In this document: one piece after another, positions 2,832-26,940 of the stretch
Position numbering within the stretch: position 1 is the stretch's first letter
Layout: the number at the start of each line of letters is the position of its first letter
Virus record (IMG/VR): IMGVR_UViG_3300013286_000003
Coordinates: 1 to 37,808 of that record
Source of the DNA: a virus
Length of the DNA: 37,808 bases
Strand: one strand, 5' to 3'
Notes under the pieces: generated by a model
What the model was told of the DNA's origin: nothing
Seen by the model: the letters and a program-made list of their open reading frames with translations, nothing else
Database searches by the model: none
Translations under genes and position numbers: made by a program

Positions 2832-3178
2832 GCCTAACGCCTATGCAGGTAGAAAAGCGTTTGCTGGATTTGGCTAAAGAAATTGATGATGCCCACGAGG
2901 AGTTAATTGTTTCTGAGCAGGTTTATCACACCGCTAAAGCCAGTTTAGAAATTGCTATGGCGCGCAGTCGCATGAACGCCAGTCACCCTGATTTTAAATT
3001 GACCAGCGTTCAACGCGAAGATCAGGCGCTTATAGAAAATGCTGAACAACACATGAAGTTAGCAATAGCCGAAGCCCAAGTTAAAGCGGCAAGAGGTAAT
3101 GCCAACCGCATCAGAACACAGGTGGACATTGCCCGTTCTATTTCGGTATCGGTGCGCGCTTCTATGGAAGTTGCTTAA
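2828..3178 (+). CDS. Coiled-coil protein of unknown function
   Basis: 116 residues, almost entirely predicted helix with heptad-like hydrophobic spacing (VEKRLLDLAKEIDDAHEEL near the start and AEQHMKLAIAEAQVKAARG in the middle). No catalytic residue pattern is visible. It overlaps both neighbours by one to four bases, between the putative annealing protein and the Cas4-like nuclease, which suggests an accessory role in DNA metabolism; this is inference from position. Similar coiled-coil proteins occur in comparable positions in actinophages, as I recall. Confidence 0.75.
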   Translation: MSLTPMQVEKRLLDLAKEIDDAHEELIVSEQVYHTAKASLEIAMARSRMNASHPDFKLTSVQREDQALIENAEQHMKLAIAEAQVKAARGNANRIRTQVDIARSISVSVRASMEVA

Positions 3179-3825
3179 TGGACATACAAGGATTACTTAA
3201 AGTAGCCCTAACCGATAACGACAAATCGCGTGATCGGTCAATGCAAGTGGAGATCGGTGCTTCAAGTGTTGGCGGGTGTAAAAGGCAAGCGTGGAACATT
3301 ATTCATCAAAAGCCTAAAACCAACCTTGACACCGAATCACTTGCAGCCATAATTGGTACTGCGGTGCATGAGGTAATTGCTAAGTCACTTTCTCAACAGA
3401 ATGAGTTTAACGATTTCCTTATTGAACAAGGATTTGCAACACCTGACATTAAAGGGCATTGTGATCTTTACATTAAATCCACTAAAACTGTTGTGGATTG
3501 GAAAACGACTAGCCTAAAAAACTTATCTCGATTTCCTTCTACGCAACAGAAAATGCAAGTAAACATTTATGGATACTTGTTAGAAGAAAATGGCTACCCA
3601 GTTGAAACAGTATCGTTGGTGGCAATTCCTAGAGATGGGCGAATGAGTGAGGTAAAAGTTTGGCAAGCACCTTATGATCGTGCAATAGCATTAGCGGGTA
3701 TTGAATGGGTGCGAGATTTACAAAATACCGTATTCCCACCTGAACCTGAACGACCTAGACAATTCTGCAAAGATTTTTGCGAATTCTATGATGTAAGCGG
3801 GGAGATTGGATGCCGAGGAAAGTAA
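3178..3825 (+). CDS. Cas4/RecB-like PD-(D/E)XK exonuclease with probable Fe-S cluster
   Basis: 215 residues. Nuclease motifs in order are C34 (VGGCKRQAW), H64 (GTAVHEV), D96 (GHCDLY), the D107-W-K109 core and the motif IV helix near 125-133 (KMQVNIYGYLL). Three C-terminal cysteines (C197, C201, C212) plus C34 match the four-cysteine iron-sulfur arrangement of Cas4 and AddB-type nucleases. It probably resects DNA ends for the annealing protein encoded upstream. TAATG junction with the preceding gene and a 16-base overlap with WhiB show tight coupling. Confidence 0.85.
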   Translation: MDIQGLLKVALTDNDKSRDRSMQVEIGASSVGGCKRQAWNIIHQKPKTNLDTESLAAIIGTAVHEVIAKSLSQQNEFNDFLIEQGFATPDIKGHCDLYIKSTKTVVDWKTTSLKNLSRFPSTQQKMQVNIYGYLLEENGYPVETVSLVAIPRDGRMSEVKVWQAPYDRAIALAGIEWVRDLQNTVFPPEPERPRQFCKDFCEFYDVSGEIGCRGK

Positions 3826-4190
3826 ATCGTAAAACCGTTGATTGGGATAAGGCAAATTGTTTAGGGATGCCTACCGATTGGTTTTATTTTCAGAAAGGAG
3901 AACTCATGGCGCAAGAAGGCATTTTTTATGTGCAGTTGCGCGAGATTTGTTTTCGTTGCCCTATTTGGAAAGAGTGTTTAGAAGTAGGCGTTGCCTACGA
4001 ACGCTATGGCTGGTGGGGCGGTTTAAGTGAACTTGAACGCAATCATGTTTATCTCAATTTACAAAGTCGCACTATTGAGTATTTAAAACGCGATTTGCGC
4101 TACTTAGGTAAGAAATTTGAGGAAATTAAAACTATGGTGCAAGATGTTGAACGCAATTTAGATGACGGGATTGATAAATGGCAAAGATAG
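3810..4190 (+). CDS. WhiB-family iron-sulfur transcription regulator
   Basis: 126 residues. Cysteines C17, C47, C50 and C56 give the WhiB spacing CX29CX2CX5C that ligates a 4Fe-4S cluster, followed by the turn motif GWWGG (67-71) and a basic/helical C-terminal region (about 77-126) that may contact DNA or sigma factor. WhiB proteins are confined to Actinobacteria and their phages, so this gene is the best host marker in the window. A mycobacteriophage homologue (TM4) is known to interfere with host WhiB2 and block superinfection; a similar role here is inference. The C-terminal coiled extension of about 45 residues is longer than in minimal WhiB proteins. Confidence 0.95.
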   Translation: MPRKVNRKTVDWDKANCLGMPTDWFYFQKGELMAQEGIFYVQLREICFRCPIWKECLEVGVAYERYGWWGGLSELERNHVYLNLQSRTIEYLKRDLRYLGKKFEEIKTMVQDVERNLDDGIDKWQR

Positions 4191-7357: not shown

Positions 7358-7890
7358 TGATTATTGGATTAAGCGGGTATGCGCAATCAGGCAAAGATAC
7401 AGTTGCCGAAATACTGGTGGAGGAGTATGGCTACACCAGGGTTGCATTTGCCGACATCATCAAGCAAGCCGTTTATTTGCTTGACCCAATTGTTAATGTT
7501 TCAGGTATGCGCTTGCGCTACTTTGTAGATCAGAACGGGTGGGATGAGGCTAAGCATTTACCTGAAGTGCGCCGATTGCTGCAAGTAATGGGAAGCGAAG
7601 TAGGCAGGGATTTAATTGACCCGCAGATTTGGGTTGAACTAACTATGTACAGCGTGATGCCAAGTGACAACATAGTTATTAGCGATGTGCGCTTTAAAAA
7701 TGAGGCTTCCGAAATTAAATTCAAGGCAGGTCAGATTTGGCGCATTACTCGGATAGATCGCAGTAAACCAATTAACTTACATCGTTCAGAAACAGAGTTA
7801 GATAATTGGAACTTTGACCAGTATGTAGCCAACAATGGCACTATTGATGATTTACGAGCAGAAATAAGGGGGCTAATGTGGAGGCAATAG
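7357..7890 (+). CDS. Deoxynucleoside monophosphate kinase
   Basis: 177 residues. P-loop GYAQSGKDT at residues 7-15; the lid/core shows EVRRLLQVMGSEVGRDLIDPQIWV and the strand NIVISDVRFKNEA characteristic of phage dNMP kinases (T4 gp1-like fold). The enzyme phosphorylates dNMPs from host DNA to dNDPs for phage replication in the cytoplasm. Its last codons overlap the GTG start of the zinc-ribbon gene. Confidence 0.9.
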   Translation: MIIGLSGYAQSGKDTVAEILVEEYGYTRVAFADIIKQAVYLLDPIVNVSGMRLRYFVDQNGWDEAKHLPEVRRLLQVMGSEVGRDLIDPQIWVELTMYSVMPSDNIVISDVRFKNEASEIKFKAGQIWRITRIDRSKPINLHRSETELDNWNFDQYVANNGTIDDLRAEIRGLMWRQ

Positions 7891-8478: not shown

Positions 8479-9594
8479 GTGAAGGCAATAAGTTTATTTG
8501 CAGGTGTGGGGGGTTTTGACCTTGCGCTTGAAAGAAATGGCATTGATGTTGTTGCCTCTGTGGAAATAGATAAACATGCCCGTTCAGTATTGGCTAAACA
8601 ATTTCCTAAATCTCATTTATTGGAGGATGTAAAAAATGTCACAGGAGAACAATTATTTGAATATGGATTTAACTCAGATGGAATTATTGTCGGTGGATTC
8701 CCTTGCCAAGACCTCAGTGTCGCTGGAAAGCGTAGAGGATTGGCTGGCGAACGCTCAGGATTATTTTGGGAAATCTACAGATTACTTGACGAAACAAAAG
8801 CCAAATGGTTCATACTTGAAAATGTCCCTGGTTTATTGTCATCAAATGGAGGAAGGGATTTGGGAATCATTCTTGGGTCGCTGGCTGAACTCGGGTATGG
8901 GGTCGCATACAGGATTCTTGACGCTCAGCACTTTGGAGTACCCCAACGCCGCAGAAGAATCTTCATTGTCGGATGTCTTGGAGATGACGGGAGAACACCT
9001 GCAGAAATACTTGCTATCGCCGAAGGCCGCTCAGGGTATTTTGAGAAGGGCAAAAAACAGAAAAAAAGTTCTGCCACAACCATTGCTAGAGGTCTTGGAG
9101 CGACAGGCGTTGCAGGAACTTTAGCGGCTAGAGATTACAAAGGTTTAGCGGCTGATGATTTATTAGATAATAAAGCAATAATTTTTGACCCACACCGCTC
9201 AGATGGCGTAAGAATTCAGGGTGAAACAACTAATACTTTAACTAGCATGATGGGTACAGGTGGAAACAATATGCCTATGGTTGCTTATCCAATGCACGGT
9301 GCGATGGTTGGTAGAAGTGATACTGCTGGCCCAGGTGGTTCAGGATTTTTAGATAAAAACGAACCTAGTTATACATTAACAGCCTCATCACAGGCTAGGC
9401 ATGGGGTAGCGGCTATTGATGAAAACACTTCAATAGTGCGCCGATTAACCCCTATTGAATGTGAACGCTTACAAGGATTTCCTGATAATTGGACAGCGGG
9501 GCAAGCAGATGGACATAGGTACAAACAAATGGGTAACGCGGTAGCCGTACCTGTGGTTGAGTGGGTTGTTAAAAGATTATTGGAAACGCAATGA
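8479..9594 (+). CDS. dcm: DNA cytosine-C5 methyltransferase
   Basis: 371 residues from GTG 8479, eleven bases after the start of AGGAGGCAAA. All key motifs are present: I (SLFAGVGGFDLAL, 5-17), IV with catalytic C76 (GGFPCQDLS), VI (ENV, 114-116), VIII (QRRRR, 156-160), a target recognition region at about 190-310, IX (RRLTPIECERLQGFPDNW) and X (YKQMGNAVAVPVVE). It methylates phage DNA, probably to evade restriction. No partner restriction enzyme is evident. Codons 53-215 are also read in another frame by the nested gene 8636-9124. Confidence 0.95.
   Translation: MKAISLFAGVGGFDLALERNGIDVVASVEIDKHARSVLAKQFPKSHLLEDVKNVTGEQLFEYGFNSDGIIVGGFPCQDLSVAGKRRGLAGERSGLFWEIYRLLDETKAKWFILENVPGLLSSNGGRDLGIILGSLAELGYGVAYRILDAQHFGVPQRRRRIFIVGCLGDDGRTPAEILAIAEGRSGYFEKGKKQKKSSATTIARGLGATGVAGTLAARDYKGLAADDLLDNKAIIFDPHRSDGVRIQGETTNTLTSMMGTGGNNMPMVAYPMHGAMVGRSDTAGPGGSGFLDKNEPSYTLTASSQARHGVAAIDENTSIVRRLTPIECERLQGFPDNWTAGQADGHRYKQMGNAVAVPVVEWVVKRLLETQ
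8636..9124 (+). CDS. Overlapping gene nested inside the methyltransferase (+1 frame)
   Basis: 162 codons entirely within dcm, with its own SD GGAGG (8622-8626) nine bases before ATG 8636. The product does not look like a random shadow. SLAKTSVSLESVEDWLANA, a WESFLGRWLNSGM block, TLEYPNAAEESSLSDVLEM and a C-terminal KYLLSPKAAQGILRRAK with basic helix match, by my recollection, a widespread phage protein family found next to Dcm-type methylases. The PNAAEESSL segment is the +1 reading of the conserved QRRRR motif VIII, implying the family arose by overprinting dcm. Function is unknown. Confidence 0.65.
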   Translation: MSQENNYLNMDLTQMELLSVDSLAKTSVSLESVEDWLANAQDYFGKSTDYLTKQKPNGSYLKMSLVYCHQMEEGIWESFLGRWLNSGMGSHTGFLTLSTLEYPNAAEESSLSDVLEMTGEHLQKYLLSPKAAQGILRRAKNRKKVLPQPLLEVLERQALQEL

Positions 9595-9692
9595 TTTGCT
9601 TCAACTGCGGTACAGATAGTAAAGTTAGTGATAACTCGGAACAAGCCATTGCGCGGGAATCAGCAATGGTAAGCGAAAGGACATCATCATAG
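9591..9692 (+). CDS. Tiny CxxC peptide after dcm
   Basis: 33 residues, ATGA overlap with the dcm stop. It begins MICFNCGTDSK, the first half of a zinc ribbon, then becomes polar with no second Cys pair. It may be a remnant or a real micropeptide; the coupling to dcm is the only support for translation. Confidence 0.35.
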   Translation: MICFNCGTDSKVSDNSEQAIARESAMVSERTSS

Positions 9693-9697
9693 AGTTA

Positions 9698-9788
9698 CCG
9701 TGAGCCGTTTCTCATGGTATGGCGATAGGAAGGGAAGCCTCATCGCACCGCAAGACCCGCTAGAGATTTGCCTCCCTAGCGGGTTTTT
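9698..9788 (+). ncRNA. Structured RNA segment: three consecutive hairpins ending in a terminator
   Basis: Hairpin 1 pairs CCGTGAG (9698-9704) with CTCATGG (9711-9717), including one G-U pair. Hairpin 2 pairs GCGATAGG (9722-9729) with CCTCATCGC (9738-9746), with one bulged base. Hairpin 3 is the terminator at 9755-9784. No reading frame covers this stretch. It could be a discrete small RNA or simply a structured 3' UTR; no clear promoter was found for it. Confidence 0.35.
9755..9788 (+). terminator. Rho-independent terminator of the early region
   Basis: ACCCGCTAG (9755-9763) pairs perfectly with CTAGCGGGT (9776-9784) around a 12-base loop, followed by TTTTT (9784-9788). It separates the dcm operon from the HslV-like gene. 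Confidence 0.88.
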
Positions 9789-9814
9789 GCATTTCTTACA
9801 GATAGTCTTTCTAA

Positions 9815-10351
9815 GTGACTACGATTATTGGGCTTAAATTGCTTGATCGCGCTGTGATTTATTCTGATAACCAAGTAACTAGCGGGCATCTGCGCTACAA
9901 CGATAAGCGCATGGTAAAGATTACAAAGCGCGGCGACTTTCTTATTGCTGGCGCTGGTGAAGTATTGGCTTGCGACATAGCCCAACATTTATTTGAACCG
10001 CCAAGCCCTACGCCTAAAGATTATCGAAACCTTTATCATTTTATGATTGCCAAAGTAATGCCAGCCTTACGCGGGTGCTTAAAAGATAACGCGTGGAATT
10101 TTGAAGCCGAAGTTGATGATGATTACCGCTTTAGATTTTTATTTGCCATTAACGGTGAAATCTTTGAAATAGATGACGATCTTTCAGTATGCGTAAGAGA
10201 TGACGGATTTTACGGAATTGGTTCAGGTAGTGAGTTCGCATTAGGCGCACTTCACGCAGGGGCTACGCCACGCAAAGCGCTAGAAATTGCAGCCAATCTT
10301 GATGTTTACACTTCCAAGCCATTTATGAAGCGCGAGAGCCGCGTTGAATGA
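9815..10351 (+). CDS. HslV-like threonine peptidase (proteasome-type Ntn hydrolase)
   Basis: 178 residues, the size of HslV. After Met removal the chain begins TTIIG, placing the nucleophile Thr1 as in HslV. D17 lies in YSDNQVTSG (HslV has GDGQVTLG), a Lys follows at 34, then IAGAGEVLACD, YGIGSGSEFALGALHAGAT and ALEIAANLDVYTSKPF match the HslV strands and helices. The GTG start is fixed because an in-frame TAA immediately precedes it; no SD is visible. No HslU or other unfoldase is encoded in the genome, so it may use a host partner or degrade peptides alone. Self-assembly into a ring is inferred. Confidence 0.8.
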   Translation: MTTIIGLKLLDRAVIYSDNQVTSGHLRYNDKRMVKITKRGDFLIAGAGEVLACDIAQHLFEPPSPTPKDYRNLYHFMIAKVMPALRGCLKDNAWNFEAEVDDDYRFRFLFAINGEIFEIDDDLSVCVRDDGFYGIGSGSEFALGALHAGATPRKALEIAANLDVYTSKPFMKRESRVE

Positions 10352-10698
10352 AAAAGGAAATAGCAGAGATAGTTTTAGAACGAGCAGGGTCGTATTGCGA
10401 GGCGTGTGGAGGCGCAGGGGGTAACTTTGCCCTACACCATAGAAAATTGCGCTCTCAGGGGGGCAAGGATGAGCCATGCAACCTGATTGCCGTACACCAC
10501 GCTTGCCATAACCTAGCCACCAACTCCATACACCTAAATCCCGCCAAATCGGTTAAAAAGGGCTGGATTGTGCCTAGTTGGGGCGAGCCAAACGAGTTTC
10601 CTTTGCACCTTCCAGACGGATCAGTTGTAAGGTTAGACAACGAAGGCAACTATTTAGAGATAGAGGGCGAAAATGGCAACGATAGAGATTACTGGTAA
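10348..10698 (+). CDS. HNH endonuclease
   Basis: 116 residues. CEAC (17-20) and the later Cys bind the structural zinc; H30-H31, N45 and H54 (NLIAVHHACHN) give the HNH catalytic motif. It starts in an ATGA overlap with the peptidase gene. The C-terminal 50 residues (LHLPDGSVVRLDNEGN) form a small beta extension seen in some phage HNH proteins. It could assist packaging or act as a homing or defence nuclease; it is not adjacent to terminase, so a packaging role is less obvious. Confidence 0.85.
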   Translation: MKKEIAEIVLERAGSYCEACGGAGGNFALHHRKLRSQGGKDEPCNLIAVHHACHNLATNSIHLNPAKSVKKGWIVPSWGEPNEFPLHLPDGSVVRLDNEGNYLEIEGENGNDRDYW

Positions 10699-14197: not shown

Positions 14198-14525
14198 CCC
14201 ATTAAACATTACTGTTCGTCAAAACCAAGAATGGGCTATTAACTTCACTTATCAAGATTCATCAGGTAATCCAATCTCACTTGCTGGTTACACACCGCTT
14301 TTGCAATTTCGTACTAGCGCGCTTGCCAAAACTTCTGCGTTATCTCTTACATCAGGTAGTGGCATTACATTTAACGCAACTACCGCGCCACAAGTGCAAG
14401 TCAATACAGGTATTACTTGCGCATCAGGTAAATACGAGTGGGATTTAAAACTTACTCCTAGCAATGGGGAAGCAATCTTTTTAAGTCGCGGAGTCGTGCA
14501 AGTAGATGCTGAGGTATCGCGCTAA
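14166..14525 (+). CDS. Ig-like/BppU-type fibre accessory protein
   Basis: 119 residues from ATG 14166 with GGAG upstream; it starts inside terL. After a Pro/Ser/Gln-rich start, ITVRQNQEWAINFTYQDS, a GYTPLLQFRTS strand and KYEWDLKLTPSNGEAIFLSRG form an all-beta domain like the N-terminal modules of baseplate/fibre upper proteins. Its TAA overlaps the start of the collagen-like gene, so it is probably the anchor or connector for that fibre. Exact function is unproven. Confidence 0.6.
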   Translation: MPAQSISQTPDPLNITVRQNQEWAINFTYQDSSGNPISLAGYTPLLQFRTSALAKTSALSLTSGSGITFNATTAPQVQVNTGITCASGKYEWDLKLTPSNGEAIFLSRGVVQVDAEVSR

Positions 14526-16027
14526 TGGCTGACAACATTTATGTAACACCTGTAACGCCTAGCATTGTAATTTCATCTGCTGGCGCTCGCGGTGTTCAAG
14601 GTGCAACAGGCACAGGCGCGCAAGGACTTCAGGGTGTCCAAGGTCTGCAAGGCGTACAAGGCACAACAGGCATTCAAGGCACACAGGGTACGCAAGGACT
14701 TCAAGGCGCACAGGGATTGCAAGGGGTTCAGGGAACTCAAGGTGTGCAGGGGCTTCAAGGCGTTCAAGGCACTCAAGGATTACAAGGCAATACAGGTATT
14801 CAAGGTTCTTTAGGTATTCAGGGAACTGTTGGCGCGCAGGGAACTACAGGCGCACAAGGATTAGTCGGAATTCAAGGTACAACGGGAACACAAGGATTAA
14901 CTGGAATTCAAGGCACAACTGGTAGTCAAGGCATTACTGGTTTGCAAGGAACTACGGGAACACAAGGCACTACTGGTACTCAGGGCGTACAAGGTCTGCA
15001 AGGAACAATCGGTAGTCAGGGAACAACTGGTACTCAAGGATTAACAGGCATTCAAGGCAATACTGGTTTACAAGGAATCACAGGCACAGGCGCGCAAGGA
15101 ACGCAAGGCATTCAAGGGTTGCAAGGTTTAGGCGATCGTTACCAAACAACATCCTCATCTTCATTAACACTTCCTGCAACTGGTTCTATTTCGTTTACTG
15201 TTGGCGCGAATCTTTCGTATTCAACAGGTCAAACCGTAATTATTGCTAACACAGTTTCTAATTACATCATTGCTGACATTGCAACTTATACAGTTGGTAC
15301 TGGCGCTATGACCGCTACAGTTACTCGATCATTAGGTGTTGGAACATTTACATCATGGTCAGTAAACTTAGATGGCGCAGTTGGTATTCAAGGTGTTCAG
15401 GGAACTTTAGGTAATACTGGTTCGCAAGGAACACTAGGCGCACAAGGTATTACTGGTACGCAAGGCGCAGTTGGTACACAAGGTTTAACAGGAATACAAG
15501 GGCGAATTGGCAATCAAGGAACTACTGGCACAAACGGTTCTAATGGTGCGCAAGGTACAACTGGCTTACAAGGTTTAATCGGCAGTCAAGGAACAACAGG
15601 CAGTAATGGCTCCAACGGCGCACAAGGAACAACTGGAAGTCAAGGAACTGTTGGAACTCAGGGCGCTACAGGTGCGCAAGGATTAGTTGGCAATCAAGGT
15701 TTAACTGGTTCACAAGGCACATCAGGTACTAATGGTACAAATGGCTCGCAAGGTATTACTGGTCTGCAAGGTTTAACTGGCACACAAGGTACAAGCGGAA
15801 CTAATGGTTCGCAGGGTACGCAAGGTCTGCAAGGTACGATCGGTAGCCAAGGCACGACAGGAACACAAGGCTTAACTGGCTTACAAGGTTTAACTGGCTT
15901 GCAGGGTATTCAAGGTTTGCAAGGATTACAAGGAACGCAATCAGTCCAAGGTATTCAGGGCTTGCAAGGTACAACAGGTAACGATGCAACCGCTTTACCA
16001 AATATCCTCATGTTAGGTGGAATGTAA
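14525..16027 (+). CDS. Collagen-like fibre protein (Gly-X-Gln/Gly-X-X repeats)
   Basis: 500 residues. Two long Gly-X-Y tracts (about 22-203 and 284-480) consist of units such as GLQ, GVQ, GTQ, GIQ and GTT. They are separated by a non-collagen beta domain (about 204-282: LPATGSISFTVG, then TATVTRSLGVGTF). Gln dominates the Y position; proline and charged residues are essentially absent from the tracts. Trimeric fibre or virion decoration is likely, as for other phage collagens. A short cap follows the second tract (LPNILMLGGM). Synonymous codons vary between repeats, so the DNA is less repetitive than the protein. Confidence 0.85.
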   Translation: MADNIYVTPVTPSIVISSAGARGVQGATGTGAQGLQGVQGLQGVQGTTGIQGTQGTQGLQGAQGLQGVQGTQGVQGLQGVQGTQGLQGNTGIQGSLGIQGTVGAQGTTGAQGLVGIQGTTGTQGLTGIQGTTGSQGITGLQGTTGTQGTTGTQGVQGLQGTIGSQGTTGTQGLTGIQGNTGLQGITGTGAQGTQGIQGLQGLGDRYQTTSSSSLTLPATGSISFTVGANLSYSTGQTVIIANTVSNYIIADIATYTVGTGAMTATVTRSLGVGTFTSWSVNLDGAVGIQGVQGTLGNTGSQGTLGAQGITGTQGAVGTQGLTGIQGRIGNQGTTGTNGSNGAQGTTGLQGLIGSQGTTGSNGSNGAQGTTGSQGTVGTQGATGAQGLVGNQGLTGSQGTSGTNGTNGSQGITGLQGLTGTQGTSGTNGSQGTQGLQGTIGSQGTTGTQGLTGLQGLTGLQGIQGLQGLQGTQSVQGIQGLQGTTGNDATALPNILMLGGM

Positions 16028-19458: not shown

Positions 19459-19681
19459 TACACCAAAGAAACTTGTGGTTGATGTCGCAAAAGGCACACA
19501 CGAGTACATTGACCTAACCCCTGCCGAGATTGCAGAGCGCGACCAGATGGCAGCACAGGCAGAGGCAGAGCGCCTAGAGCGCGAAGCGGCAGAAGCGGCT
19601 AAGGCAGATGCAAAACTTCGTGCGCAAGCCAAACTTCAAGCACTTGGTTTAACTGGCGAAGAGATTATTGCTTTAGGCTAA
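19451..19681 (+). CDS. Small coiled-coil protein, possible fibre chaperone
   Basis: 76 residues from ATG 19451 (SD AAGGAGAAG), overlapping the previous gene by eight bases. LTPAEIAERDQMAAQAEAER and the following Ala/Glu/Lys helix end in LQALGLTGEEIIALG. The layout resembles small helical proteins at the ends of phage fibre operons (XkdW-like). Its stop codon overlaps the stop of the convergent FkbM gene. Confidence 0.65.
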   Translation: MSDTPKKLVVDVAKGTHEYIDLTPAEIAERDQMAAQAEAERLEREAAEAAKADAKLRAQAKLQALGLTGEEIIALG

Positions 19682-20340
19682 CTAACCCACAGCATTCCAA
19701 CATCGGCAGTTGGTCTAAGCCCCGATAATTTCCATTTATCTTCAACCCACTCTTGGCTCGCCCAAGATAACCAAGCAGTAAAATCAAATTTATCTAAAGC
19801 AAACCACATTTCAGGTTGCTGACAATGATGCTCAATAAATTGCGGGGCTACTTTTGTATAGCCGCCGTGATGTAGGTACTCAAGTTGTAGTTGGTGATCG
19901 GCAATAGTGGCTAAAGTCCACTCAAAGGCAATCGTTCCCATTTTGCGCGATAAACCCTTAAACACAGACCACTCAGCACCTTCTACATCTATTTTTATCA
20001 GATCAGGTTCGCCGTAGCGTAAGGCAAGTGAGTCCAAAGTAATAGTAGTTGCGCCAATAGTCCTAAATGGCTTGCCAGCGTAAGGCATAGTTTCTTTTGT
20101 AAGCCAATCTTGATTGAGGCTTGATAGCCCATCTTCATCGGCTTCGTAGAATTCAACCCATTCATCATTGCTACCGCTTACAGCAAACTTTAATGGCGTA
20201 ACGCGTGAATTGTAAATAAAGTTTTCAATCAATTTAGCAAAAACTCTAGGGGCAGGTTCAAGGGCAATTACTTCGTAGCCTTTAGCAAGCGCGGCAGTAG
20301 TCCAATCGCCTCGGTTAGCGCCTATGTCAAATGCCAACAT
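19678..20340 (-). CDS. FkbM-family SAM-dependent methyltransferase
   Basis: 220 residues from the ATG at 20340; an upstream in-frame start would run further into the TPR gene. MLAFDIGANRGDWT is the SAM-binding loop (motif I), VIALEPAPRVF the acidic second strand, and DLIKIDVEGAEWSVFKGL the FkbM signature. FkbM enzymes O-methylate sugars or related small molecules, often on surface glycans. Last gene of the reverse-strand cassette; overlaps the TPR gene by 14 bases. Confidence 0.85.
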   Translation of the reverse strand: MLAFDIGANRGDWTTAALAKGYEVIALEPAPRVFAKLIENFIYNSRVTPLKFAVSGSNDEWVEFYEADEDGLSSLNQDWLTKETMPYAGKPFRTIGATTITLDSLALRYGEPDLIKIDVEGAEWSVFKGLSRKMGTIAFEWTLATIADHQLQLEYLHHGGYTKVAPQFIEHHCQQPEMWFALDKFDFTAWLSWASQEWVEDKWKLSGLRPTADVGMLWVS

Positions 20341-20887
20341 CAATTTTTTCCAAATTAGAACGGACAACGCTGGCGTAAGTTGGATGTAAATCCTGACTGG
20401 CAAGAGATCGCAAAATAGATAAAGATTCTTCTTGGCGACCTATCCACCAAGCAGATACGCCCATTTGAAAGCGTAAGCAATAAGAGCCGTAATAGCCCAC
20501 ATCAGCAGGTAATGGGTCACTACCAAATGACCATCCATAACCTATTGAAGCAAAAGTGTAACATTCTTGCCAATTACCAACTCGTTCGTGATACTGAGAT
20601 AAAAGTAAATACGCTTCAGGTCGGCAATCATCATAGGCAAGTGCTTGCAGCAAGCAATTAGTTACGCTGTATTCCCTACCCTTTTGATCGTCAAAACATT
20701 GAGCCATTTTTAATAAAGAAGCATACACTTTAGGATTATTCTCACCACCGTATTCAGCGCAACGCAAATAAAAAGATACGGCTGATGCGGTTTGATTTAA
20801 TTGTAAGTATTCTTGCGCCACATCAAAGTTTAAGTCCGAATTAAAGGGTTGATGTGATAATCTTACGATTAGACTAGCAAGACTCAT
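20327..20887 (-). CDS. TPR-like helical repeat protein of the glycan cassette
   Basis: 186 residues. Repeated helix pairs are visible (VAQEYLQLNQTASAVSFYL, then VYASLLKMAQCF, AYLLLSQYHERVGNW and SAWWIGRQEESLSILRSL), spaced like tetratricopeptide repeats. Such modules accompany glycosyltransferases in phage genomes and hold partner proteins. Overlaps of 14 bases at both ends indicate co-translation with the propeller and methyltransferase genes. Confidence 0.7.
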   Translation of the reverse strand: MSLASLIVRLSHQPFNSDLNFDVAQEYLQLNQTASAVSFYLRCAEYGGENNPKVYASLLKMAQCFDDQKGREYSVTNCLLQALAYDDCRPEAYLLLSQYHERVGNWQECYTFASIGYGWSFGSDPLPADVGYYGSYCLRFQMGVSAWWIGRQEESLSILRSLASQDLHPTYASVVRSNLEKIDVGI

Positions 20888-21881
20888 AATTAAGTGCCTC
20901 CAAAATTAAATCTTCAACTACAAGATTAGGTACTCGTAAGATAAAAGCAGCGTTATCTTGAAAGCCAAATGTAAGCAACAAATCTTCACCTAATTTAGCA
21001 GCGCCAACGCAGAATTCAACGCGAGCATCAAGAAACGAAAATGGCTCAGACATACCAGCAAGATTAAATGCTTCATCCCAAATGATTAAACGATGGCGAT
21101 AAACAGCATCTTTTTGGTTGAGATAATTCATAAATAAATTTACTTCATGGGTGATAGCAATAAACATACTGCCCCAACGCAAAACCTGAGAACCACCGCG
21201 TTGATCTGCTGGTGGTGCGATTGTCTGCCGAATGTAAAGTTGCTCACAAGTTTTATTTAATGGGTCTGCATAAACTACTTCGGTAGGCATTGACCATTTA
21301 ACAAATTGATGCGGTCTTTCAAGAATCGGCATCCAATTCTTTTCGCAATAAGATGTATTTGGTGTAGGAGCAGGAATACGGGTTCGATGGATTTCGCTAA
21401 CTTTCCAATTAGTTTTATCTATCTCAATTTGCGAATACTCCATGCGACCTACGCCATTATCGGTAGTATCTCGCCTGACACCAACAAGGTAATAATCGTC
21501 ATGCCATTGGACAAGGCGAGCATCTTCTAGCCCCACAAACTCCCAAATGGGTTCGTGCAAGGTAAGCATTTCAACTAAAGCGTGATCGGTCATTTCCAAA
21601 TTATTATTAAGTCGGCAAAGGTAATTAGTAGTAATTAATCGCTGATCTTTTTCAGGATGTAAATACGATAGTGGCCCAAACCGCGAAGGATAAAGTTGTT
21701 GATTTTCTGCGTGGTATAAGGTGTAATTCACATGGCGTAGGTTTACTAAAATTTCCCCATCGTTATCAATGAATACAGATGGATTCATCAAGCCTGTGCC
21801 TGATGTAAGCCCATTAGAAATAACAAGTGGGGCTAATTTGCCCCCGTAAGATACAGCCTTCTCAACTAAGTTCACACTCAA
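20874..21881 (-). CDS. Beta-propeller glycosidase-like protein (GH43/GH130-type fold)
   Basis: 335 residues from a TTG at 21881. Blade-like repeats carry NPSVFIDNDGEILVNLRHVN, FGPLSYLHPE, a GLEDARLVQWHDDYYLVGVR motif that resembles the ED-R signature of GH130-type enzymes, EKNWMP and the late DARVEFCVGAAK. It may trim or phosphorolyse a glycan, or have become a binding protein. No SD precedes TTG; a GTG two codons later could be a leaderless start. First gene of the reverse cassette. Fold assignment by motif resemblance. Confidence 0.65.
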   Translation of the reverse strand: MSVNLVEKAVSYGGKLAPLVISNGLTSGTGLMNPSVFIDNDGEILVNLRHVNYTLYHAENQQLYPSRFGPLSYLHPEKDQRLITTNYLCRLNNNLEMTDHALVEMLTLHEPIWEFVGLEDARLVQWHDDYYLVGVRRDTTDNGVGRMEYSQIEIDKTNWKVSEIHRTRIPAPTPNTSYCEKNWMPILERPHQFVKWSMPTEVVYADPLNKTCEQLYIRQTIAPPADQRGGSQVLRWGSMFIAITHEVNLFMNYLNQKDAVYRHRLIIWDEAFNLAGMSEPFSFLDARVEFCVGAAKLGEDLLLTFGFQDNAAFILRVPNLVVEDLILEALNYESC

Positions 21882-25254: not shown

Positions 25255-26940
25255 ATGACAATGGATTTTGCTAATGCGTATGCCGCAATTATTAAACAAG
25301 AAAAACAAGAAGATGGTTCATTACTTGTTTATGGTAAGGCAACAGATGATTCAATAGACATGGATCAGCAAATTTGCGATCCAACATGGTTAGATCGCGC
25401 TATGCCTGAATGGTTTAAATCAGGTGGCAACATCCGCGAACAACATTCAAACATTGCAGCAGGGGTAGCAAAAGAGTATGAAGCAAAAACCGATGGTCAT
25501 TACATTTCGGCTCTTGTGGTTGATCCTGTGTCTGTCAAAAAAGTCGAAGCGGGAGTCCTTAAAGGTTTCTCAATCGGTATCAAAGCCCCAAGAGTTGTAC
25601 GCGACACAAAAGCGGTTAATGGTCGCATCATTGATGGGCAAATTATTGAAGTATCGTTAGTAGATCGCCCTGCCAACCCAAATGCCAAATTGATTATGGC
25701 TAAAAGTGTTGAAGGCGAAACAAGTTTGGTTCAAGTAGAAGAATTACATGAATACAAAGCACCACTTCCTAGTGAATTGATAAAAGAATCTACTAATTAC
25801 GAGGACATTAACACAGGTGGCGAAGGTTCAGAACCCGCCGACAAAGAACTTTACAGTCGTGTAAAGGCAGAGGCTAAAAAGAAATTTGATGTTTACCCAT
25901 CAGCCGTTGCAAATGCTTGGGTTGTGCGCGAATACAAAAAGCGTGGTGGTAAGTATCGGAAAGAAACTAAAAAAACTACAGATGCCCAGAAAGGGTCAAA
26001 GATGGAAACAATTAAGCAAATTACGGAATTGGCTAAGTCATTGACCCCTGACTCCGTAAAATTTAACAAAGAAGCATTTGACAAGGCTCGTACCGCCCTT
26101 GCCGAATTGATTGTTGTTGAAGCAAACGAAATGGCAAATTCAGGTTCTAACGAAAAAGATTCCATTGAAGAATTATTAGATGCTGTTAAACATTTATTCC
26201 ATTGGTACGAAGGCGAAATCTCTGAAGGAGAGGTACAAACACCTATGAACGCTGAAGTCATGGAACTTGGCGCAGATGCAGAAACCATTAAAAGCGATGA
26301 ATGCGATTGCGAATGCGATGCTTGCAAGAATTACAAAGGTTGCGATTCCAAAATGTGCAAATGCGGCGCTATGATGGCTGCTAAGTCTGTAGATAAGTGC
26401 CTTGAATGCGGTTGCCACAAGCCAGTCGAAGATCATGGTCGCGCAGATGTATCAACTGCCGAAATTGTGTCACCTGACCAAACACCTAAGTCTGCTGAAG
26501 CAGATGAGCCTGTTGCCGAAGAAGCAACAATTGAAGTTGTAGCAGAAGCGCCAGCCGAAGTTGCAACAGAAGAAATTTCTGAGGTTGATTCCTCAGATGC
26601 CCCATCTATCGAGGATGTGGTTGAAAAAGCCGTAAAAAGTGCTATGGAATCGGTAAAAGCAGAGATTGATGCTCTACGCGCAGAAAAAGAGTCTGCTGTA
26701 GAAAAGTCAGTAAACCTTGAAACCGAACTAGCAACGGCATTGTCTAAGTCAGTTGCAGGTGGGCCAAAGCGCACCTCTATTAACTCAGGCGCACAATCAA
26801 ATGAATACTTGGTAAAAGCCGCAACCTACAAGGCTAAGGCTGATGCCACAACCGATCCCGTTCTTGCTAAAGGTTATCGCGCGCTTCACGCAGAGTTTTC
26901 TGCTAAAGCAGGATTGCCTGTAAATACCGAGAACGAATAG
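25255..26940 (+). CDS. Prohead protease (XkdF-like) fused to a KGGKY-type domain and Cys-rich scaffold
   Basis: 561 residues with SD TATAAGGAGAAATA. Residues 1-155 resemble XkdF/S78-type protease: candidate H64 (REQHSN) and S106 (KGFSIGI), then IEVSLVDRPANPNAKL. Residues about 195-238 (DVYPSAVANAWVVREYKKRG) match a short domain usually seen alone. A stretch at about 348-392 holds ten cysteines, and 460-500 is a coiled coil (VKAEIDALRAEKESAVEKS) typical of scaffolds. Protease and scaffold in one chain could self-process as in HK97-like assembly. ATG 25261 is an alternative start. Confidence 0.85.
   Translation: MTMDFANAYAAIIKQEKQEDGSLLVYGKATDDSIDMDQQICDPTWLDRAMPEWFKSGGNIREQHSNIAAGVAKEYEAKTDGHYISALVVDPVSVKKVEAGVLKGFSIGIKAPRVVRDTKAVNGRIIDGQIIEVSLVDRPANPNAKLIMAKSVEGETSLVQVEELHEYKAPLPSELIKESTNYEDINTGGEGSEPADKELYSRVKAEAKKKFDVYPSAVANAWVVREYKKRGGKYRKETKKTTDAQKGSKMETIKQITELAKSLTPDSVKFNKEAFDKARTALAELIVVEANEMANSGSNEKDSIEELLDAVKHLFHWYEGEISEGEVQTPMNAEVMELGADAETIKSDECDCECDACKNYKGCDSKMCKCGAMMAAKSVDKCLECGCHKPVEDHGRADVSTAEIVSPDQTPKSAEADEPVAEEATIEVVAEAPAEVATEEISEVDSSDAPSIEDVVEKAVKSAMESVKAEIDALRAEKESAVEKSVNLETELATALSKSVAGGPKRTSINSGAQSNEYLVKAATYKAKADATTDPVLAKGYRALHAEFSAKAGLPVNTENE

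Follow-up and report, generated by a model that had tools for sequence, protein, structure and literature searches.

A proteasome-fold threonine peptidase gene in a clade of freshwater phages with probable actinobacterial hosts

The stretch of DNA analyzed here (the window; 37,808 nucleotides, positions 1 to 37,808 of IMG/VR virus record IMGVR_UViG_3300013286_000003) carries at 9815–10351, on the forward strand, a coding sequence for a proteasome-like threonine peptidase of 178 amino acids, identified from its open reading frame, its match to PHROG_1040, its relatives, an AlphaFold2 model and its dN/dS. The GTG start lies directly 3′ of an in-frame TAA, the initiator methionine alone precedes Thr1 with no propeptide, and the 178 residues read in outline VTTIIGLKLLDRAVIYSDNQ...GIGSGSEFALGALHAG...YTSKPF.... 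The profile phrog_1040 ("peptidase HslV family", PHROGs) matched residues 1–171 with an E-value of 4.1e-31, each of the 17 proteins in a mixed alignment matched PHROG 1040 alone, and the Pfam Proteasome model (PF00227) scored 22.6 bits, just above its cut-off of 22.4. A first scan of IMG/VR returned 37 relatives at 49–97% identity, every one of which starts M-T-T-I at the identical position and has no residues upstream of the initiator Met, and a profile scan found at least 592 IMG/VR stretches that encode this peptidase clade. The dN/dS was 0.041 between the window gene and that of the related record L002, and 0.03–0.15 across the six computable pairs, which indicates strong purifying selection. 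This selection, together with the start shared by 37 relatives, rules out a chance open reading frame or a decayed gene, and 9815–10351 (+) is confirmed as a real gene for a proteasome-fold protein.

The peptidase gene of the window sits in an early DNA-metabolism region, flanked by a cytosine (5mC) methylase gene on one side and by HNH endonuclease and SSB genes on the other. The HNH gene (10348–10698, +; PF01844 8.5e-06, phrog_740 4.1e-24), which is syntenic in the related record L054, begins with an ATG that overlaps the peptidase stop codon (ATGA). In close relatives such as L054, the genes run transglycosylase-like, peptidase, HNH, SSB; in the window, the cytosine methylase lies between the transglycosylase-like gene and the peptidase. 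In L054 itself, a tRNA-Asn gene (7536–7608) fills the corresponding intergenic position upstream of the peptidase gene. Across lineages the position changes: an endolysin gene lies just upstream at 58 loci, and a portal gene does so at 21 loci of the L021/L037 type, where the peptidase gene has the portal gene as one immediate neighbour and a small Pro/Gln-rich gene as the other (L021, 4071–8988). This varied location argues for an accessory function in infection and, as the context differs between lineages, no partner within an operon hints at what the substrate is.

Elsewhere in the window, a collagen-like repeat protein of 500 residues (14525–16027, +) matches phage tail fibres, and three opposite-strand genes (19678–21881, −) lie inside the structural region, one encoding an FkbM-type methyltransferase and another weakly matching a glycosyltransferase; judged by these matches, the trio is possibly a glycan module. 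No named phage nearly identical to the first 25 kb was found.

Directly upstream of the peptidase gene, positions 9692–9790 (+) hold a conserved structured RNA (fold z-score −4.1) made up of two or three hairpins, one of which has a CCGUU loop, and a final hairpin that resembles a terminator. Its stems are fully paired despite differing sequence in L002, L004, L054, L066 and L219, and its downstream loops contain GCCUCC, which is complementary to Shine-Dalgarno sequences; it could be a small regulatory RNA. Rfam gave no match to it, and wider sequence-pattern scans returned mostly chance matches in coding DNA. A short open reading frame (9594–9693, +), roughly 34 codons long and encoding a CxxC motif, directly precedes this RNA, and L002 has a similar stretch. 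Between the RNA and the start codon, we noted a putative −10 element, TAGTCT (9803–9808, +), which ends 6 nt before the GTG in the manner of a leaderless-type promoter, and no Shine-Dalgarno sequence upstream of the window gene. A −10-like hexamer (TANNNT) ends exactly 6 nt before the start in the window, L002, L003, L004, L054, L064 and L067, and ends 5 nt before it in L039; none was present at such spacing in relatives that bear a Shine-Dalgarno sequence. The combination of this spacing with the missing Shine-Dalgarno sequence suggests that the peptidase transcript is leaderless and starts right after the upstream terminator hairpin.

In mature numbering (Thr = 1), the residues of a proteasome-type active site are all encoded. 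Thr1 (codon 9818–9820, +), which is expected to act as the N-terminal nucleophile once Met has been removed, and Asp17 (9866–9868, +) are invariant in 19 aligned relatives and in a 17-member distant set. Lys34 (9917–9919, +), which sits one residue later than its HslV counterpart and corresponds to Lys33 of HslV and the 20S proteasome, is invariant in close relatives and conserved in at least 90% of the distant set. The oxyanion-loop glycines are G45 and G47, and a GSGS motif equivalent to the Ser129 loop (residues 135–138; 10220–10231, +) is followed by YTSKPF; the oxyanion-loop glycines and GSG are likewise invariant across the 19 relatives, as is the catalytic lysine. The first-pass annotation had described a 178-residue frame after an in-frame stop, with a TTIIG-type N-terminus, D17, a lysine near position 34, GSGS and YTSKPF, and each of these is present, the frame spanning exactly 9815–10351 (+).

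Using the alignment of 19 relatives, AlphaFold2 produced one confident model out of five (pLDDT 90, pTM 0.87; the other four had pLDDT 37–49). The top Foldseek match of this model was the Thiobacillus BPH structure 5ovs (E 1.3e-10), with HslV and 20S beta subunits next. Alignment with VIA-align gave a Z of 17.9 against BPH (rmsd 2.6 over 163 residues) and of 16–17 against HslV, 20S and Anbu, values so nearly equal that the subfamily is not assignable from structure alone. The model thus supports an Ntn-hydrolase/proteasome fold with an intact Thr/Asp/Lys residue set. A non-Ntn fold or a missing Thr, Asp or Lys had been named beforehand as evidence against the assignment; upon checking, the predicted fold and the residue conservation both hold.

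Within the proteasome family, we could reject two specific identities. The peptidase is not a true HslV, since it scored 26.7 bits against a cut-off of 157.75 (TIGR03692) and 27.1 against 137 (NF003964), equivalog models that E. coli HslV passed as a positive control with 288 and 304 bits; the initial label "HslV-like" is therefore apt in the wide sense of proteasome fold and active site, but fails in the strict sense by more than 100 bits. PPH is excluded as well: proteins of that group are defined as about 140 residues long and missing the second helix H2 (Fuchs et al. 2021, PMC8665760), whereas the peptidase has 178 residues and its model contains both H1 and H2 (helices 50–59 and 73–91). 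A profile search of the PDB ranked BPH (33.7 bits) above HslV (28.1 bits), and the clade shares with BPH the lack of a propeptide, an extended acidic pore loop and the lack of an unfoldase. By hhalign, a cellular group from Streptomyces and Rhizobium was closer (score 117, E 8e-19) than E. coli HslV (score 54, E 3.5e-8). Genomes scanned with patterns from the phage alignment, which proved too specific, yielded no cellular relatives; when the Streptomyces/Rhizobium proteins served as seeds instead, 179 turned up. The cellular group is present in Streptomyces, Actinomadura, Actinoplanes, Frankia, Amycolatopsis, Rhizobium, Azospirillum and Mesorhizobium, along with a few Bacillota. This range is the AAH distribution published by Fuchs, Alva and Lupas in 2021 (PMC8665760), and these nearest homologues in alphaproteobacteria and actinobacteria are probably the AAH group. 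The phage proteins themselves are best termed AAH-like, a wording short of established AAH proper; in a tree with long branches and a poorly resolved deep order they form their own clade, and BPH is set apart, also on long branches with low resolution. The best explanation is that the peptidase belongs to group I of the proteasome family, the HslV/BPH/AAH/CPH/PPH branch.

A further departure from HslV lies at the predicted pore. An acidic segment, DNAWNFEAEVDDDY (10085–10126, +; net charge −6), aligns with the basic R86/R89/K90 cluster, whose residues we confirmed in E. coli HslV, and all 43 parsed relatives carry an acidic segment of 12–18 residues with a net charge of −2 to −6. BPH has a long acidic pore loop where HslV has R86/R89/K90; this loop accompanies the loss of HslU dependence and has been proposed to select substrates, and the purified protein showed no activity on either standard peptides or casein (PMC5777263). 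By analogy, this inertness makes an activator or a narrow substrate possible for the present clade.

A gene for a WhiB-like protein, a marker of actinobacterial hosts (3810–4190, +; PF02467 5.5e-10), occurs in 20 of 25 related phage records, window included, and among 14 control genomes WhiB was found in Corynebacterium only. Both observations make the hosts very probably Actinobacteria, which supports the actinobacterial host assumed by the first-pass annotation; the phage origin that it assumed is supported as well. A Cas4/PD-(D/E)XK-like nuclease gene (3178–3825, +) adjoins the WhiB gene. The initial claim that no HslU or other AAA+ partner is encoded was borne out within the 37,808-base record: AAA_2 (PF07724, HslU/Clp) was absent from all 25 related phage records including the window, and PF00004 had no match in the window. 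With that record as the searched part, such a partner is likely absent from the whole phage. Of the 296 Actinomycetota genomes sampled on the host side, just one had HslU at E ≤ 1e-100, which practically excludes borrowing of HslU; the earlier suggestion that the phage borrows a host ATPase could thus apply to other ATPases only. Among carriers of the cellular homologue, six alphaproteobacterial or Bacillota genomes had HslU and six actinobacterial genomes had none above the cut-off, so the homologue can persist without HslU.

The most likely reading, which we consider an even proposition, is that this accessory gene of freshwater phages of Actinobacteria encodes an ATPase-independent, self-compartmentalizing threonine peptidase whose task during infection is to eliminate or process particular proteins of the cell. 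Host methionine aminopeptidase would expose Thr1, and subunits would assemble into a closed (double) ring with the active sites facing inward, as in BPH and HslV. Access would be controlled by the acidic pore loop in place of an AAA+ unfoldase, and during infection the chamber would degrade or process peptides, unfolded polypeptides or one particular protein of the host or the phage. The fuller version, in which members of a widespread freshwater actinophage clade assemble a proteasome-type chamber of their own that needs no ATP, inside hosts devoid of HslVU, and use the acidic loop to pick substrates, is more tentative, and we would sooner bet against it than for it.

An alternative that we regard as unlikely, though worth weighing, is that the protein is a proteolytic half that docks on a host AAA+ protein other than HslU (Mpa/ARC, ClpC or ClpX) and redirects it to substrates chosen by the phage. 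Strong activity of HslV, the group I relative studied in most depth, depends on an ATPase. BPH alone is inert, as noted above (PMC5777263), and 16 other related phage records have PF00004 matches, weak ones (best E about 3e-8) that lie away from the peptidase gene. Against docking stand the near-absence of HslU from the phylum, the empty AAA_2 and PF00004 searches, the retention of the cellular homologue in actinobacterial genomes without HslU, and our failure to find the alpha ring on which Mpa would dock. Furthermore, Fuchs et al. report no AAA+ partner co-occurring with any such homologue (PMC8665760).

A role as a counter-defence or host-takeover protease with a single host target, such as a defence effector, a transcription factor or part of a toxin-antitoxin pair, we judge distinctly unlikely as a separate account. 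A small or disordered target would need no unfoldase, an accessory gene at variable positions under strong selection fits such a role, the window gene adjoins the 5mC methylase, and the acidic pore loop, which varies, could choose substrates in the way suggested for BPH (PMC5777263). Yet PADLOC returned no match that would place the gene in a defence system, no target emerged, and this account overlaps the self-compartmentalizing peptidase favored here, differing only in substrate breadth.

It is improbable that the peptidase trims head or tail proteins during virion morphogenesis. The slot after the portal gene is often that of the head-maturation protease, and the 21 portal-adjacent loci leave this possible for their lineage. 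For the window phage, the suggestion of the first-pass annotation that the enzyme processes virion proteins is unsupported, given the early-region position of the gene and a separate, weak S78-like prohead protease candidate at 25255–26940; in addition, Microbacterium phage WaterT encodes both gp15, of the PHROG 1040 family, and a separate capsid maturation protease (gp24), and at 58 loci the gene follows an endolysin gene instead. A non-proteolytic Ntn hydrolase, either ligase or amidase, is very improbable: connectase, a protein ligase, belongs to the proteasome family (PMC8665760), but the model has no connectase-like helical S3-S4 insertion (strands E21-23, E26-28 and E36-39 run directly) and the active-site set is the standard proteasome one.

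Orphan HslV-family genes are widely annotated in phages, PHROG 1040 spanning hundreds of them, and the paper on Salmonella phage pSal-SNUABM-04 remarks on its lack of HslU (PMC7823757). In 2021 Fuchs et al. described the proteasome homologues of phages as a class and could find no actinophage AAH (PMC8665760); the literature that we searched contained no study of how a phage HslV-family protein functions. To this known kind the window gene adds a large, uncharacterized actinophage clade, a host phylum nearly devoid of HslU and the evidence of the acidic loop, and it extends known but unexplained phage-borne proteasome homologues to an abundant clade of freshwater actinobacterial phages. Because the host phylum is practically without HslU, the clade offers a clean system for asking whether such enzymes can dispense with an unfoldase, which BPH, AAH and PPH have left unanswered. 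If true, the chamber reading would describe a self-sufficient viral proteolytic ring.

Compared with known systems, the peptidase belongs to the same phage protein family as PHROG 1040, an orphan family without HslU whose aligned members lack a propeptide; members from named phages (for example phAPEC8 gp175, WaterT gp15, DSL-LC01 WJZ48484 and CcrSwift gp266) share 29–40% identity with it, and the window protein falls in a separate clade of freshwater actinophages. The closest cellular sequences, in Streptomyces, Actinomadura, Frankia, Rhizobium and Azospirillum, match the published AAH range, but identity is about 26–35%, the aligned cellular rows have GCG where the peptidase has GSG, and the phage proteins keep to their own clade. 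BPH (5ovs, 5ovt, 5ovu) is the best structural match and likewise combines an acidic pore loop with no propeptide and no unfoldase, yet it is only 21–26% identical and is a 14-mer, whereas a ring of the window protein is a prediction. E. coli HslV (TIGR03692) has the same fold, T1/D17/K33-type site and GSG; it differs at 23% identity, with a score for the peptidase below the equivalog cut-off, no accompanying HslU, and a predicted pore that is acidic where HslV has R86/R89/K90.
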